From Verrucomicrobiales bacterium (GTDB lineage: Bacteria; Verrucomicrobiota; Verrucomicrobiia; Limisphaerales; CAIMTB01), in assembly GCA_016795425.1 (NCBI GenBank), contig JAEUHG010000013.1:1-33858 (forward strand): a DNA stretch of 33,858 bases, written 5' to 3'. The notes below the pieces were generated by a model. The model saw nothing but the letters and a program-made list of their open reading frames with translations. It was not told the origin of the DNA and made no database searches. Below are positions 18,097 through 24,559 of this stretch, one piece after another. The stretch's first letter is position 1, and each line of letters starts with the position of its first letter. A program made the translations under genes and the position numbers.

Positions 18097-18365
18097 CCAC
18101 CCCCCCTCCTATAGTGCCCAACGTGAAACGTTTCGGATTCGCTCAAACCCTGCTCGCTTTGGTCGCCGTCGGCGGCATCGCCTCGGGTTGTGGCGGAGTG
18201 CGCGGCAGTCATTCCGTATCGCCCGCGACCTTCTTCATGCCGGGCCTCATGCATCACGAGCCGGCCCAACCGGTGCCGGCCCAACCGGCCCCCGTCGCCG
18301 ACCCGTCCGGTATCGAATCTTCGCCCCGCCTCTCGGGCCCCGCAGATCGGGCCCTCCCAAGCTGA
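18093..18365 (+). CDS. Small predicted lipoprotein
   Basis: The 90-aa protein starts with an ATG inside the ribF stop (ATGA); a GTG at 18123 (VKRFGFAQTLL) gives a more typical signal peptide. The hydrophobic stretch TLLALVAVGGIASGC ends in a lipobox-like ASGC, so the mature protein probably starts at that Cys with a lipid anchor. The remainder is Pro-rich (EPAQPVPAQPAPVADP) and looks disordered. No family is recognised. It precedes the hopanoid genes by 16 bases. The coupling at both ends supports a real gene, but the lack of conserved domains keeps confidence moderate. Confidence 0.6.
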   Translation: MTTPPPIVPNVKRFGFAQTLLALVAVGGIASGCGGVRGSHSVSPATFFMPGLMHHEPAQPVPAQPAPVADPSGIESSPRLSGPADRALPS

Positions 18366-18381
18366 CCGTTTCGCTTTTCCC

Positions 18382-19827
18382 ATGCGTTTTCCCCTCGCGC
18401 TCTCGCTCAAGATCACCCGGCACATCGTCAAGCATAAGCTTCGGCGAACGCCAAAGTTCGCCATGGTGCTGCAGCTCGAGCCGTTGCACACCTGCAACCT
18501 CACCTGCACCGGCTGCGGTCGGATCCGCGAATACTCCACCAGCCTCAAGGACATGGTGCCGCTCGAGCAATGCCTCGCCGCGGCTGCCGAATGCGACGCC
18601 CCCATGGTTTCCGTCTGCGGAGGCGAACCGCTGATCTACCCGAAGATCGAGGAACTCGTCGCCGGACTCCGCGCCCAGGGACGCATCATCTACATCTGCA
18701 CGAACGGGGTTTTCATGAGGAAAAAGATGCGCGAGTACCTCGCCGCGCATTATCAGCCGTCCTTCGAACCTCAGCTGCAAAGACTGGTCTCCGAAGAACT
18801 CGTCACCGAGAAGGAAGCCGCCCAGATCCGCGCCTCGGACGCCGCCGCCCGTTCCAAGATCACCATCGCGCCTTCGAAATGGATGTACTGGAACGTCCAC
18901 GTGGACGGCCTCGAATACACCCACGACCTGATCGTGGAACGCGAGGGCGTCTTCAAGGAATGCGTCGCGGCCATTCGCATGGCCAAGATCCTCGGCTACC
19001 AGGTCGCCACCAATACGACGGTTTACAAGGAATCCGACGTCCAGGAACTCGAGGACATGTTCAAGTTCCTCTCCTGGCTCGAAGTCGACGGCCACACCAT
19101 CTCGCCGGGTTACGATTACGATGCGGCCAAGAAGGACATGGTGAAGCGTCTCGGCAAGGATCCCACCGAGTTCTTTCTCACCCGCGATCTCACGCGCCAG
19201 AAATTCAAGGACATCCAGCGCTGGGGCGAGATGTTCACCATCTTCGGAACGCCGGTTTACCAGGAATTCCTCGCCGGCAAACGCGAACTCACCTGCACCG
19301 CCTGGGCCATCCCCACGTACAACGTCAAGGGCTGGAAGGCGCCGTGCTACCTCATGACCGATGGCCATTACCCCAGCTACGCCGAAATGCTCGGCCAGGT
19401 CGCGTGGGAGAAATATGGCGTCGTCAACGGCGTCGCCCGCGACCCGCGTTGCGAGAATTGCATGGTGCATTGCGGGTACGACCCCAGCGGCGCCCTCGGC
19501 ACCAATTACCAGGCCGGTGATAATTGGAAGAATTTCAAATACAACTTCTGGCCCAAACCCGCCCCCTTCGCCCGCGGCGGCGAGGTCATCGCTTTTAACG
19601 GCGTGTCCGTCGGCAAAGGCCACCTCGCCGAAGCCAAGGCCGCCGTCAACCGCGAACTCGCCGGTGCCAAATCCGCCTTCGCCCGCGGCGGCAATGCCCT
19701 GGACAGCTCCTCCCCGACCGCTCCGTCGTCCGGAGGTGGCTGCGCCTCGGGCACCGGCTCCGGCACCAGCGCCCGCGACGAACTCCTCGCCAAGATCCGC
19801 TCCGACGACAAGACGATCTCCTCCTGA
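18382..19827 (+). CDS. hpnH: Hopanoid biosynthesis radical SAM protein HpnH (adenosylhopane synthase)
   Basis: HpnH joins the 5'-deoxyadenosyl radical of SAM to diploptene to form adenosylhopane, the first step of C35 hopanoid side-chain synthesis. The start at 18382 gives MRFPLALSLKITRHIVKHKL, the usual family N-terminus. The radical SAM cluster motif is CNLTCTGC (C38, C42, C45), followed by VSVCGGEPLIYPKI, YICTNG, HVDGLEYTHD and TISPGYDYDAA. The C-terminal cysteine region, CENCMVHCGYDPSGA, is also a family mark. The protein is 481 aa, longer than the roughly 330-390 aa I recall for the family. An extra segment lies between TNG and HVDG (about 117-165), and a low-complexity tail covers about the last 95 residues. 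hpnJ starts immediately after the stop. Confidence 0.93.
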   Translation: MRFPLALSLKITRHIVKHKLRRTPKFAMVLQLEPLHTCNLTCTGCGRIREYSTSLKDMVPLEQCLAAAAECDAPMVSVCGGEPLIYPKIEELVAGLRAQGRIIYICTNGVFMRKKMREYLAAHYQPSFEPQLQRLVSEELVTEKEAAQIRASDAAARSKITIAPSKWMYWNVHVDGLEYTHDLIVEREGVFKECVAAIRMAKILGYQVATNTTVYKESDVQELEDMFKFLSWLEVDGHTISPGYDYDAAKKDMVKRLGKDPTEFFLTRDLTRQKFKDIQRWGEMFTIFGTPVYQEFLAGKRELTCTAWAIPTYNVKGWKAPCYLMTDGHYPSYAEMLGQVAWEKYGVVNGVARDPRCENCMVHCGYDPSGALGTNYQAGDNWKNFKYNFWPKPAPFARGGEVIAFNGVSVGKGHLAEAKAAVNRELAGAKSAFARGGNALDSSSPTAPSSGGGCASGTGSGTSARDELLAKIRSDDKTISS

Positions 19828-21285
19828 ATGAGCGCCCTTTTCCTGTCACCGCCAAGTTTCGACGGTTTCGATGGCGGCGCCGGTTCCCGTTATCAAGCCC
19901 GGCGCGAGGTCACGAGTTTCTGGTACCCCACGTGGCTCGCCCAGCCCGCGGCCCTTGTTCCCGGTGCCAAACTGCTCGATTGCCCGCCGCATAACATCGG
20001 CAAGGACGAGTGCCTCCGTATCGCCAAAGGCTACGACCACGTCGTCATCCACACGTCCACGCCGTCGCTCAAAAACGACTGCAAGGTTGCCGAAGCCATC
20101 AAGCAACAACGGCCCGACACCAAGATCGGATTCGTCGGTGCGCACGCGGCCGTCCTGCCCACCGAGACGCTCAAGGCTTCCAGCGCCATCGACTGGGTCG
20201 GTCGCAAGGAATTCGACTTCACCTGCAAGGAGGTCGCGGAAGGCCGTCCCCTTCAGGATGTCGCCGGGCTTTCCTACCGCGATCAGGACGGGAAATTCCG
20301 CCATAATCCCGAACGGGAACTCATCCACAACATGGATGTGCTCCCGTGGGTCGCCGACGTCTACAAGCGCGATCTTCAGATCGAGAAGTACTTCATCGGC
20401 TATCTTCTCCATCCGTACGTCAGCCTCTACACCGGGCGCGGTTGCCCCGCCCAATGCACGTTCTGTCTCTGGCCCCAAACCATCGGCGGCCACAAGTATC
20501 GCGTTCGCTCCGCTCAAAATGTCGCCGACGAAATGGCTTATATGAAGAAGTCCTTCCCGCAGGTCCGGGAATTCTTCTTCGACGACGACACCTTCACCGC
20601 CAATCTCCCGCGCGCCCGCGAGATCGCCAAGAAACTCGCCCCCCTGGGCCTCACCTGGAGTTGCAATTCGCGCGCCAATCTCGACGCTGACACCATCCGG
20701 TTTTTCAAGGATTCCGGCCTGCGCCTGTTCCTCGTTGGTTACGAATCGGGCAACGCCGACATTCTCGAGCGCATCAAGAAAGGGGTCACCCTCGAGGAAA
20801 TGCGCCGATTCACCAAGTCCTGTCACCAGGCCGGTGTCGTCATTCACGGCACATTCATTCTCGGCCTGCCCATCGAAACCCCCCAGACCATCGAAAACAC
20901 CATTCATTTCGCCAAGGAATTGGATGTTTTCAGTCTCCAGGTCAGCCTCGCCGCCCCCTACCCGGGCACCGAACTCTTCGAGATGGCCCGACAGAACGGC
21001 TGGTTCGCCAAACGCGACAAGACCGCCATCGTCCACGAAGACGGCTTCCAGGATTCCTCCCTCGAATACCCCGGCCTGAGCAAGGAAGAGGTGTTCGAGG
21101 CGGTCGACCGCTTCTATCGGTCCTACTACCTCCGACCAAAGCCGATCCTGCGCATCATCAAGACGATGCTCGAGGACAAGGACGTCTTCGTCCGACGATG
21201 CCGTGAGGGCTATGAATTCTTCCGCAGTCTGAGGCAACGCAAGGAGACCCTCGCCGCCGCGCGCACCGCCGTCGCCTCGACGTGA
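19828..21285 (+). CDS. hpnJ: Hopanoid biosynthesis B12-binding/radical SAM protein HpnJ
   Basis: The 485-aa protein begins with PPSFDGFDGGAGSRYQARRE and FWYPTWLAQPAAL, which I recognise as HpnJ. An N-terminal cobalamin-binding-like domain (about 1-160) is followed by the radical SAM motif GRGCPAQCTFCLWP (C206, C210, C213), the EFFFDDDTF motif, LVGYESGN and FILGLP. HpnJ has been linked genetically to bacteriohopanetetrol cyclitol ether formation, together with the glycosyltransferase HpnI and deacetylase HpnK. Neither of those partners is in the window. The ATG at 19828 directly abuts the hpnH stop. A role in modifying the polar hopanoid head group is expected; exact chemistry is inference. 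Confidence 0.92.
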   Translation: MSALFLSPPSFDGFDGGAGSRYQARREVTSFWYPTWLAQPAALVPGAKLLDCPPHNIGKDECLRIAKGYDHVVIHTSTPSLKNDCKVAEAIKQQRPDTKIGFVGAHAAVLPTETLKASSAIDWVGRKEFDFTCKEVAEGRPLQDVAGLSYRDQDGKFRHNPERELIHNMDVLPWVADVYKRDLQIEKYFIGYLLHPYVSLYTGRGCPAQCTFCLWPQTIGGHKYRVRSAQNVADEMAYMKKSFPQVREFFFDDDTFTANLPRAREIAKKLAPLGLTWSCNSRANLDADTIRFFKDSGLRLFLVGYESGNADILERIKKGVTLEEMRRFTKSCHQAGVVIHGTFILGLPIETPQTIENTIHFAKELDVFSLQVSLAAPYPGTELFEMARQNGWFAKRDKTAIVHEDGFQDSSLEYPGLSKEEVFEAVDRFYRSYYLRPKPILRIIKTMLEDKDVFVRRCREGYEFFRSLRQRKETLAAARTAVAST

Positions 21286-21331: not shown

Positions 21332-22015
21332 GTGCTGATCGTCGGTGTCTGCGGCGGTTCCGGTTCCGGCAAATCGACGCTCGTCGCCGCGCTGCAACGG
21401 CATCTCGCCGCGTTCGCGGGCGTGGCCATCCTGCCGCTCGACGCCTATTACCGTTCGCTGCCTCCGAGCCACGACCCGGCTCACCGGAACTTCGACGATC
21501 CACGCGCTCTCGACCTCGCTCTGGTTCGACGTCACCTCGACCAGGCCCGCCGCCATCCACAACGGCCTCTCCGCCTGCCTCGCTACGATTTCGCCCATCA
21601 CCGTCGGCTGAGCACACCAACGCTTTTGGCCATGGATGCCGTGGAGATTCTTCTGGTCGAAGGCGTCCTGCTCTTCGCCGATGCCCGACTGCGCCGCTCC
21701 CTGGATGTCCGGGTGTTCGTCGATTGTCCAGTGGACCTGCGGTTCATTCGCCGTCTTCAGCGCGATGTGCGCGAGCGTGGGCGCACGCCCGAAGGAGTGA
21801 TCCAACAGTACCTCGCCACCGTCCGCCCGATGGATGCCATTCATGTGGCGCCGCAGCGGAAGTGGGCCCACGCGATCGTGAAATCAGAGGGATCGTTGGA
21901 TCAACTCGATCGCCAGGCCGCGCGATTGGCGCGCCAGCTTCTCCGCCGAGCTCAAGCGCGGCAGGGCCGCAGGCCCGTCGCACCCGTCACGGTGAAACCA
22001 CACGCACCCGAATGA
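21332..22015 (+). CDS. udk: Uridine kinase-type P-loop kinase
   Basis: The 227-aa protein resembles uridine/cytidine kinase of pyrimidine salvage. The Walker A loop is GVCGGSGSGKST (residues 5-16); LPLDAYYRSL and NFDDPRALD match the Udk acceptor-binding region, and EILLVEGVLLFADARLR matches the Walker B/lid entry. Later, VFVDCPVDLRFIRRLQRDVRERGR includes the R-x-x-R-D lid motif. The start is GTG at 21332, 46 bases after hpnJ; no strong Shine-Dalgarno was seen. Its 3' end overlaps the convergent selenoprotein candidate by 29 bases (21987-22015). Acceptor specificity within the PRK/Udk superfamily is not certain. Confidence 0.87.
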   Translation: MLIVGVCGGSGSGKSTLVAALQRHLAAFAGVAILPLDAYYRSLPPSHDPAHRNFDDPRALDLALVRRHLDQARRHPQRPLRLPRYDFAHHRRLSTPTLLAMDAVEILLVEGVLLFADARLRRSLDVRVFVDCPVDLRFIRRLQRDVRERGRTPEGVIQQYLATVRPMDAIHVAPQRKWAHAIVKSEGSLDQLDRQAARLARQLLRRAQARQGRRPVAPVTVKPHAPE

Positions 22016-22931
22016 AACCGGCCGGCTTCGCCCCCGCCGTCGACGTCTGCTGATAACGAACCTCGGCCGCGCCGGTGCCGTCGTAGAGATTGCGCACCGT
22101 GCCGACGCGGAAGATCTCCGACGTCCGGTTCGTCCAGTTGATCAGGTCTGGCGATGTCTCCACGACAAACTGCGCGGCATTTCCGGCAAATCGACGAAAG
22201 ATCACACCCAACGCCGGTTTGCCGGCCGGCCGTGCCAAATACCCGTCGATGAACGGCAGCGACGCCGGGCTCTTGGGTGACGACGAGAAGGTGAACTCGG
22301 TGAGGTTATCGGCGCCGTCGCCGTCCTCGTCCCCGGTCGGAGTCACCGCCAGGTTCCCGAACCATCCGTACTCCCAGTCATCCGGCAGTCCGTCCTTGTC
22401 GGTGTCGGCAGGTACTGCCAATTGCAGAAGCGCGTTCTTGAGCGCGTTGTAGTTTTGCACCTGTCCGAGATCGTGCTGGGTCAGGTTGTCCTTGAGCACC
22501 GGCCGATTGAAGGAATCCAGTACCACCACATCGCGTTGGATGATCCGCCACTTGCCCCAGACATCCTGCTCCGACGTGTCTTGGAGCCACGGCAACACGT
22601 TATGGGAATCCACCACCAGCTGATTGTACTCGGCTTGGCTAGCCATATTGATCCCGAGGATCTCCACGCGCAGGCCGGTGTTGGCTGCGTTCACTTCCGC
22701 CAGGATCTCTTGCAGGTGACCAAACTGGCCACGGCAGTATCCTCACCCCGCGTCCCCGAAGTAATACGCTGATATCTGAAGGCGATAGTCCCGTGGCGAC
22801 ACCGTTTGCTGGTACCGCGGCGAGTTCGAGTTGGCGTCTGTCAATTTGAAGTCCGGCATCGGCTGGACCTGGCCCGCGGCCGAAAGGGCCGCCGCCATCC
22901 AACTCACCAGAATGAACCATCGCGCCAACAC
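21987..22931 (-). CDS. Candidate secreted selenoprotein (UxxC thioredoxin fold, SelP-N-like) with TSP3-type repeat
   Basis: One minus-strand frame runs from GTG (22929-22931) to TGA (21987-21989), 314 residues, broken only by a TGA at 22743-22745. Read as selenocysteine, this is Sec63 in FGDAG-U-GYC-RGQFGHL, exactly the first position of a thioredoxin-type CxxC motif (C66 kept). The N-terminus, MLARWFILVSWMAAALSAAG, is a signal peptide. Residues ~24-170 look thioredoxin-like. The order U-x-x-C, VEILGIN, LPWLQ, DVW and VVVLD-x-x-x-R with similar spacings resembles, from memory, the N-terminal domain of animal selenoprotein P. Residues 176-210 (DTDKDGLPDDWE, GDEDGDGADN) form a TSP3/calcium-type repeat. 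Residues ~244-314 (VVETSPDLINWTNR ... FIRVRVVSP) resemble a C-terminal domain common on verrucomicrobial surface proteins. It is convergent with udk. Alternatives are a nonsense mutation or a sequencing error. Confidence 0.8.
22711..22745 (-). promoter_or_regulatory. Putative bacterial SECIS element with the Sec UGA
   Basis: Minus strand: UGA (22745-22743), 10 bases, then GUGGCC (22732-22727), loop AGUUU (22726-22722), GGUCAC (22721-22716). Outer pairs UGC (22736-22734) and GCA (22713-22711) extend the stem across a small internal loop. The apical loop starts 16 nt after the UGA and has G as its second base. That agrees with the bacterial SECIS rules I know (loop about 16-37 nt downstream, G within the first two loop bases, stem of at least 4 bp). 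Confidence 0.65.
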
Positions 22932-23129
22932 CGCGCCGTCATGCCACGCCCAAGGTCCCGAGTCAAAGGCTTCGATGCCCCACTTGCTTCCTGGAAATGG
23001 AGGACCGGCGCCCACGGTTCGCGGCTTGGCCTCGAACGGCTGGACCGATGGGATCCAGTCTTGCCGCCAAACTCGAAGCGCCGCAGGGCGGCGACACTCC
23101 CGATCCCCAACTCCACCCAAGGCCAAGGC

Positions 23130-23157
23130 GTGACGCAGGGGAAAGTTTCGCTACAAT
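23130..23157 (+). promoter_or_regulatory. Candidate promoter for the 23204 gene
   Basis: GTGACG (23130-23135), a 16-base spacer and TACAAT (23152-23157) resemble a housekeeping -35/-10 pair. The start codon at 23204 is 46 bases downstream. It lies in the 272-base divergent gap before the selenoprotein candidate; no comparable promoter was clear on the minus strand. Confidence 0.4.
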
Positions 23158-23203
23158 GTTGCCCCCGTCCCAACCGACGGTCGGAACGATTCATGGCCCA
23201 TCG

Positions 23204-24559
23204 ATGAAAAAACCTGCCGCACGCCCCAGCCCGTCTCCTTCGTCCTCCCCATCGGATCGCCCGCGTCTGGTGATCTGGGTCGCTCTCATCGGCGCCGTGG
23301 TGCTCGTTCTCGCGGTACTCATGCCTCGCGCTCAACATCGCGTCGCCACAGTGGCCACCGATTCCGCCCAGAATGGGTCCGGCGCGGACGACGATGCTTC
23401 CGGCAGTGCCGGAAGCGGCAGCCAGAGGGACCGCGTCCGCCCGGCTTTTGGCCGCGACCGCCTGGGCGGTTCTGGCGGCGCCACGCCGGAGCAGATCGTC
23501 GCCGATCGGGTCACCGACTTCACCCGAGGTCGCCGCAATCTCGCGGAAAACCTTGCCCGCCATTTTCAGGTGCCCCTGTCACCGGACGTTCAGAAGTTCT
23601 TCGACGCCGCCGAAAGCGGCGACTGGCGCCAGATCAAGAGCCTCTACGCCACGTTGAGCGCCCAGCGCGATGGTAGCGCCGCCACTGAACTCGCCGCCCT
23701 CTGGCCCGCCATTCGCGAAACCTATGGCGTCGCCGAACAAGCCACCGTCTGGCCCGCCCAGGAATTGCTCGCCTTCGGCAAGACGGTCCTCGGTTCGCTC
23801 CAACCAGGCTCCGTTTATGTTGCCGGCAACGAAGCGTCCCAGTTCGTGCCCGCGCTGCTCGGCGAAACCGGCGCCGGCACCCGACCGCTCGTCGTCTCCG
23901 CCGACTCGCTCAACGACCCGGCCTACGCTGCCTATTTCAGCCTCACTCATCCCGGCCGCTTGGATCTGCCTTCCCCCACACCCGTCGGCGCGCCTGCGAA
24001 TACCGCTGCGGACGGCTCGGACGCCGCGTCGCAGGAACGTATCGACGGCGGCAGCGTGTTGCGAAAACTGCTCGAGAAGAATCCCGGCCTGTCCATCGCA
24101 GTGGCGGATCCCGCCGCCGCGAAAGCCGTGGGCATGGATGTCGTCCCGCGCGGCCCCATCCTTGAGGTCGTACCATCCGGCACCGCCGAAGCCACCACGG
24201 CCGCGCACGCCGCCGAAACTTCCACCTTCTGGCGCGAGACCGCCGAACGTCTGCCCAAGGAATCGCTCCCCTCCGATTCACCCGCGCGCCAGGCCTACGC
24301 CAAACAAGCCACCGCCCAGGCGGCCCTGCTCGCCGAGCGCCAACTTCCCGCCGAGGCGGAACAGGTCTATCGCGCCGCGCGTGAGATCGCTCCCGGCGTG
24401 TTTGAACCCACCGAACAACTCACCAAGTTCCTCGCCGGCGCCGGACGCATTGCCGAAGCCGCCCAGATCCTGGACGACTACGCCCGCCAGAACGAGGCTC
24501 AGCGCTACATCGCCGAAGAGTTGAAGAAGAATCTGCAGGCCGCCGGCGGCAAGCCGTGA
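23204..24559 (+). CDS. Membrane-anchored hypothetical protein with TPR-like C-terminus
   Basis: The predicted protein is 451 aa from the ATG at 23204. A basic, Pro/Ser-rich N-terminus (about 1-20) precedes one membrane helix (LVIWVALIGAVVLVLAVLM, 22-40). A low-complexity Gly/Ser/Asp linker leads to a soluble domain starting at TPEQIVADRVTDFTRGRRNL. SGDWRQIKSLYATLSAQ and GSVYVAGNEASQFVPALL are its most distinctive parts. The last 100 residues (AERQLPAEAEQVYRAAREIA, then AGRIAEAAQILDDYARQN) are helical and look like two or three TPR units. I do not recognise a named family; the GSVYVAGNEASQ segment recalls membrane proteins seen in Verrucomicrobia. It most likely acts outside the cytoplasmic membrane. 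It is convergent with the helicase, 25 bases away. Confidence 0.75.
   Translation: MKKPAARPSPSPSSSPSDRPRLVIWVALIGAVVLVLAVLMPRAQHRVATVATDSAQNGSGADDDASGSAGSGSQRDRVRPAFGRDRLGGSGGATPEQIVADRVTDFTRGRRNLAENLARHFQVPLSPDVQKFFDAAESGDWRQIKSLYATLSAQRDGSAATELAALWPAIRETYGVAEQATVWPAQELLAFGKTVLGSLQPGSVYVAGNEASQFVPALLGETGAGTRPLVVSADSLNDPAYAAYFSLTHPGRLDLPSPTPVGAPANTAADGSDAASQERIDGGSVLRKLLEKNPGLSIAVADPAAAKAVGMDVVPRGPILEVVPSGTAEATTAAHAAETSTFWRETAERLPKESLPSDSPARQAYAKQATAQAALLAERQLPAEAEQVYRAAREIAPGVFEPTEQLTKFLAGAGRIAEAAQILDDYARQNEAQRYIAEELKKNLQAAGGKP

Follow-up and report, generated by a model that had tools for sequence, protein, structure and literature searches.

A selenocysteine codon predicted at the redox site of a thioredoxin-fold gene of family NF053656 in a Verrucomicrobiales genome

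Prx-like (peroxiredoxin-like) thiol:disulfide oxidoreductase selenoproteins with a UxxC motif, in which U stands for selenocysteine (Sec), are tabulated under PF00578 in PMC9312934 and PMC13188914, and a 'redoxin family protein' (PF08534, UxxC), which can be set beside the protein discussed here by its description only, is tabulated in PMC13188914. A further family, NF053656 (redoxin_TUGYCR), is curated in NCBIfam as 'TUGYCR motif thioredoxin fold (seleno)protein'. We analysed a stretch of 33,858 nucleotides from a Verrucomicrobiales bacterium (assembly GCA_016795425.1, contig JAEUHG010000013.1), referred to as the window, whose minus strand holds a member of NF053656 with one in-frame TGA at 22743-22745. 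Comparative sequence evidence leads us to regard this TGA, with high confidence, as a selenocysteine codon in the gene for a predicted exported thioredoxin (Trx)-fold UGYC enzyme, decoded by the SelA, SelB, SelD and tRNA-Sec of the same genome via a predicted selenocysteine insertion sequence (SECIS).

When the TGA is read as U, residues 25-170 of the window protein match the NF053656 model at 188 bits, above the cut-off of 100, and a search of the whole genome gave 182.5 bits. It has the UGYCR motif of the family, whose members read here carry either TGA or Cys at the site; the residue in front of the U, however, is G and not T, and it is mostly G in the members from Verrucomicrobiota and T in those from Myxococcota. 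In addition, the model covers the Trx domain only (146 positions), whereas the window protein continues for about 140 residues behind this domain. With the Prx-like PF00578 selenoproteins it shares an AhpC/TSA-type Trx fold with UxxC; its PF00578 score of 25.1 bits, however, lies just below the Pfam gathering score of 26, and it has a family model of its own. That the selenoprotein acts as an AhpC/TSA-type peroxidase rather than as a disulfide oxidoreductase is considered unlikely, although this alternative keeps some weight. The window protein differs from ResA, DsbE (CcmG) and TlpA in that a predicted Sec replaces their first Cys and in its C-terminal module; identity to them is 14-15%, and no NCBIfam TlpA or ResA match was obtained at E-values up to 1. 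The protein family is already known to curators, and the gene is a further member and no new kind; what is newly contributed here is the SECIS evidence, the repeated exchange of Sec and Cys and the fused C-terminal module. The string 'TUGYCR' was not found in the literature searched, and the 2026 review PMC13188914 does not mention NF053656 in its main text. The term 'verrucomicrob' does not occur in the main texts of PMC13188914, PMC9312934, PMC12013277 and PMC5029168; other papers name both selenoprotein and verrucomicrobia, so that we do not claim that selenoproteins of this phylum are missing from the published literature.

The features of the gene that carry the argument are the following.

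21987..22931, minus strand: predicted selenoprotein coding sequence of 314 residues with Sec at residue 63; start GTG at 22929-22931 assumed, stop TGA at 21987-21989
22743..22745, minus strand: in-frame TGA, predicted Sec63 codon and first position of UGYC, based on the translation and the site codons of relatives
22734..22736, minus strand: TGC encoding Cys66, predicted resolving cysteine of UGYC, invariant in alignments of 7 and of 12 sequences
22716..22732, minus strand: hairpin GUGGCC-AGUUU-GGUCAC, predicted to be a bacterial SECIS; it begins 10 nt downstream of the TGA and has its loop at spacing 16
22692..22694, minus strand: internal GTG, start of the truncated 235-residue protein P0001 in the gene prediction of the window

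Translation of the minus strand from 22931 to 21987 yields 315 codons with the one internal TGA and, likewise, a TGA as the terminal stop; the frame stays open 5' of the assumed start. Residues 57-66 read YFGDAG*GYC (in wider context YFGDAG-U-GYCRGQF), so that the TGA opens a CxxC-type motif. In codons 22-62, upstream of the TGA, nonsynonymous divergence (pN, 0.16-0.34) was below synonymous divergence (pS, 0.59-0.92) in five comparisons, and this part is therefore constrained as protein. The protein predicted for this gene in the window is P0001, and 36 of 42 database homologues, P0001 included, begin downstream of residue 63. Such starts are what one would find if the region held two genes, the first encoding a short secreted peptide that stops at the TGA and the second, downstream of it, a protein that begins at the GTG 22692-22694. 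Against this arrangement, the other six homologues (P0006, P0007, P0027, P0028, P0030 and P0032) are single proteins that run uninterrupted across the site, each with Cys at residue 63, and the predicted start falls inside the Trx domain, behind the active site. We consider two genes highly improbable. Predicted protein sets thus lose the active site of the enzyme in the 36 database copies that begin behind it. The first-pass annotation had read the same single frame with its one TGA at the place of the first cysteine of CxxC, and had expected standard gene callers to deliver two fragments or a truncated protein from the internal GTG; the translation and P0001 agree with it in each of these respects. 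Its designation as an unannotated selenoprotein holds in that gene prediction misses part of the gene; NCBIfam, however, already lists the family as one of (seleno)proteins, and the novelty is therefore lower than had been claimed.

Among 320 genomes of the window's order, the family was detected over the cut-off in 18, of which 17 carry exactly one TGA in the gene and one (G406) none. The TGA stands at the UxxC position in 17/17; in locus L067 it is shifted by a one-residue insertion and still lies three residues before the Cys. A sample of 387 genomes of the phylum gave no family match over the cut-off besides the window's own. Further genomes searched by name added the loci L081-L086 and L087-L094, all 14 with the TGA. 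The former belong to Verrucomicrobiota, four of them (L081-L084) duplicating genomes among the 17, while the latter come from entries titled Polyangiaceae, Myxococcales, Myxococcota or Deltaproteobacteria or, for L088, only 'bacterium'. In the order of G705, the Polyangiaceae genome of L087, the family exceeds the cut-off in 26 of 183 genomes, and 29 of its 33 matches contain one TGA; the site codon was read there only in the matches made into loci (30, at most one a genome). Two TGA-free copies of this order, L199 and L200, have TGT and TGC at the site, respectively, both encoding Cys. Four genomes of the same order (G719, G720, G721 and G723) each possess one TGA copy and one TGA-free copy. 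Two distant relatives below the family cut-off, L075 (genome G551) and L077 (G545), also have TGA at the UxxC site, and G545 carries selA and selB.

Altogether, 31 loci of more than 35% identity, some of which are the same contig from two collections, have the TGA at the same motif position in 26 distinct 36-mers, and this number rises to 45 distinct 36-mers with the further loci from the order of G705. The TGA occurs at this position far beyond chance, and independent genomes carry it there. In a single genome, a lone TGA in an otherwise open frame could also stem from an ordinary Cys gene hit by a nonsense mutation or a sequencing error, in which case the gene would be broken and yield a 62-residue fragment. 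This explanation is refuted by conservation, since 45 distinct sequences from two phyla share the TGA at this motif; a co-varying hairpin behind the codon, pN below pS on both sides of it and the presence of selA in TGA-form genomes (15/17 and 10/10, see below) also speak against it, and we give it next to no probability.

The hairpin provides a further line of evidence for a selenocysteine codon. Its 6-bp stem is paired in 154 of 156 cells across the 26 distinct TGA sequences, a value that none of 1000 protein-preserving codon shuffles reached (maximum 146 cells). In these shuffles, a codon could be exchanged only for that of another sequence sharing the residue in that column, so that the proteins were kept. 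In four of the six stem pairs both partners have changed, and the doubly changed cells number 22 in the 26 sequences versus 4.3 in the shuffles. For the 45 distinct sequences, 257 of 270 cells are paired and 39 of 45 stems fully so, which was reached by 0/2000 shuffles (maximum 236). The smaller set comprises the TGA loci above 35% identity among 43 loci and leaves out L075 and L077 (about 28% identity, 1/6 pairs each), whereas the larger one adds 19 distinct 36-mers from TGA loci of more than 38% identity to L087 and leaves out L203 and L206 (TGA, about 26%; 1 and 0 of 6 pairs); no tblastn row was obtained for L204 and L205. The rules for bacterial SECIS elements given in PMC13188914 demand a loop of 3-9 nt with G in the first two positions, a stem of 4-16 bp, a distance of 16-37 nt from the UGA and a minimum free energy of at most -7.5 kcal/mol. 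The window hairpin, with its loop AGUUU at spacing 16, satisfies these rules at -8.9 kcal/mol with one flanking base per side (-7.8 without), and so do 24 of the 26 sequences, L058 (-4.3) and L088 (-7.4) failing on energy. The Cys loci lack the stem in ten out of ten cases, namely L068 and nine distant loci with 0-3 of 6 pairs; L199 and L200 pair 3 and 4 of 6. A different fold of -8.1 kcal/mol was found in a 28-nt piece of L068, and L075 and L077 carry a different hairpin, CCAGAU-CGUGA-AUCUGG, at spacing 20.

The genome of the window (G000; 301 contigs, 94% complete) encodes the selenium machinery. On contig C38, selA (463.8 bits) adjoins selB (297.8 bits, joined), selD (259.1 bits) lies on contig C193, and a tRNA-Sec (62.7 bits) with the anticodon tca according to ARAGORN is located on contig C178. 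All four, which the first-pass annotation had proposed to look for, exceed their cut-offs. Since the presence of tRNA-Sec by Rfam looks inflated by tRNA-Ser-like matches (154/320 genomes of the order; in the window's genome, ARAGORN calls the tRNA-Sec search loci L002, L004 and L005 tRNA-Ser), selA was chosen for the co-occurrence statistics. It is found over the cut-off in 15 of the 17 TGA-form genomes as compared to 91 of the 320 genomes of the order (Fisher p 2e-7, relatedness ignored). SelB was detected over the cut-off in 13/17 (missing in G424, G427, G435 and G511) and a tRNA-Sec match at 1e-9, in a set that includes tRNA-Ser-like matches, in 14/17. All ten genomes of the loci L085-L094 have selA, which was looked for in 5 of the 26 family-bearing genomes from the order of G705.

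Another explanation is that the TGA is read by other means, either by leaky read-through with a near-cognate tRNA or through a genome-wide reassignment of TGA. The one point in favour of this is that the frame continues past the TGA. Reassignment is rejected because TGA terminates 12 of 14 genes checked in the window, the selenoprotein gene included. Moreover, the TGA-free relatives read at the site have Cys and not Trp or Arg, and both the hairpin and the sel genes are present. Decoding of this kind therefore appears very unlikely to us.

Several observations weigh against a selenocysteine codon. The TGA-form genomes G424 (66% complete) and G511 (60% complete) gave no selA match, and G407, G424 and G511 no tRNA-Sec match; G551 (93% complete), the genome of the distant L075, has the TGA and gave no match to selA, selB or tRNA-Sec. 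The hairpin is incomplete in the given register in 6 of the 45 sequences (L058, L088, L193, L197, L201 and L202): L201 and L202 have a shifted 7-bp hairpin (CCCAGGU-CGUGC-ACCUGGG, spacing 20), L088, L193 and L197 only weaker ones (-5.1 to -5.8), and L058 none by the rules tried. No match was found in Rfam at gathering scores. The folding energy of the 64-nt segment is unremarkable (z -1.09), and as it is not significant, we rely on co-variation. The selenocysteine at residue 63 proposed by the first-pass annotation is nevertheless supported by the sel genes, by relatives that align across the TGA with Cys or TGA at this residue, by the co-varying hairpin and by G406 with its TGC.

This last genome, which belongs to the genus of the window, is 96% complete. 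Besides TGC at the site (locus L068), it showed no selA match, no selB beyond an EF-Tu-level match and no tRNA-Sec match at 1e-9. Judged from these sequences, the Cys of L068 probably replaced Sec recently, and the trait was probably lost along with it within a single genus. The tree computed from 64 Trx domains (51 TGA, 13 Cys) requires seven changes of the U/C label, at least five of which are forced by well-supported branches. The Cys forms of the window's genus (P0006, and L068 together with P0007) sit among TGA forms. The rows of the window's order over the cut-off cluster with L085, L086 and the six Cys homologues in a single group (100/99), separate from Myxococcota. The tree was built without L075, L077 and most Cys loci of the distant f132 group (three of these were included), and L203, L204 and L206 are likewise absent from it. 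Because the tree drawing is rooted at the midpoint, it is by inference that a direction is assigned to the Sec/Cys changes. With the same-genus pair of G000 (TGA, sel genes) and G406 (TGC, no sel-gene matches), a direct test becomes possible of what Sec costs an exported enzyme and what it gains from it, and we see in this pair the most useful part of the finding, which also adds a well-supported predicted selenoprotein in Verrucomicrobiota.

The protein itself can be divided into four parts.

22872..22931, minus strand: probable signal peptide, recognized by eye only (Arg, hydrophobic stretch, SAAG; model pLDDT below 50 at residues 1-20)
22410..22868, minus strand: thioredoxin-fold domain, residues 22-174
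22296..22406, minus strand: Asp-rich putative Ca-binding repeat linker, residues 176-212 (DTDKDGLPDDWE, DEDGDGADN), with a Ca-binding-domain match below the cut-off and invariant D/W/E
21990..22256, minus strand: C-terminal beta domain, residues 226-314, from the structure model (mean pLDDT 94.8)

The model of the Trx domain appears to resemble the DsbE/ResA fold. For the C-terminal domain alone, Foldseek gave no match in the PDB at E-values up to 0.001, and the low-ranked rows, mostly immunoglobulin- or MHC-like, were not trusted. The Asp-rich linker matched the Ca-binding domain of clostridial binary toxins at 17.8 bits in Pfam (cut-off 25) and with an E-value of 0.037 in the PDB; a link to toxins was rejected, and the weak match was taken as a common DxDxDG repeat. 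The Asp-rich repeat and the beta domain (21990-22406, minus strand) match many other contigs, mostly from Verrucomicrobiota and mostly outside the Trx part. As these matches lie mostly outside the Trx part, the two together look like a mobile surface module. After the TGA, the loci L087-L094 end at 105-111 residues, and the Verrucomicrobiota loci L085 and L086 continue for 252-256.

For the redox role, the export and the function of the C-terminal part, we infer the following course. SelB would bind the predicted hairpin 10 nt downstream of the TGA and deliver Sec-tRNA-Sec. In a thiol-disulfide (or peroxide) exchange outside the cytoplasm, the attack would then come from the selenolate of Sec63, with Cys66 supplying the resolving thiol, while the Asp-rich repeats and the C-terminal beta domain may place or hold the enzyme. 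More tentatively, and with some doubt, we suggest an exported cell-surface selenoenzyme common to Verrucomicrobiota and Myxococcota. Its Trx domain, with an invariant Arg-Asp at a central strand, would be linked to different surface parts, which follow the domain in Verrucomicrobiota and precede it in Myxococcota, and the enzyme would alternate between Sec and Cys as the whole sel set is present or absent, even among members of a single genus. If true, this would amount to a natural experiment on the advantage of Sec for an enzyme outside the cytoplasm.

The genomic neighbourhood was compared for 28 loci, and no neighbour common to most of them was present among the 15 largest clusters listed, the largest of which consists of antisense frames of the selenoprotein gene itself. 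A GlgC-like gene lies upstream in four congeners (G406-G409). In the window and in G408, the selenoprotein gene is followed by a B12-binding radical SAM gene, for which L094 has another match, and L163 and L164 have Planctomycete-cytochrome-type genes nearby. Operon context was set aside as a functional clue, and no function was drawn from these small common groups. In the window, a convergent phosphoribulokinase/uridine-kinase-like gene (PF00485; 21332-22015, plus strand) overlaps the last 29 bases of the selenoprotein gene. Divergent to the latter, an open frame of 520 residues (22997-24556, plus strand) gave no Pfam match at E-values up to 0.001. The segment 12197-21285 (plus strand) encodes IF-2, DHH, TruB, RibF and two radical SAM genes in the same direction, the first of these two (18190-19827) with DUF3463 and the second (19828-21285) with a B12-binding domain.
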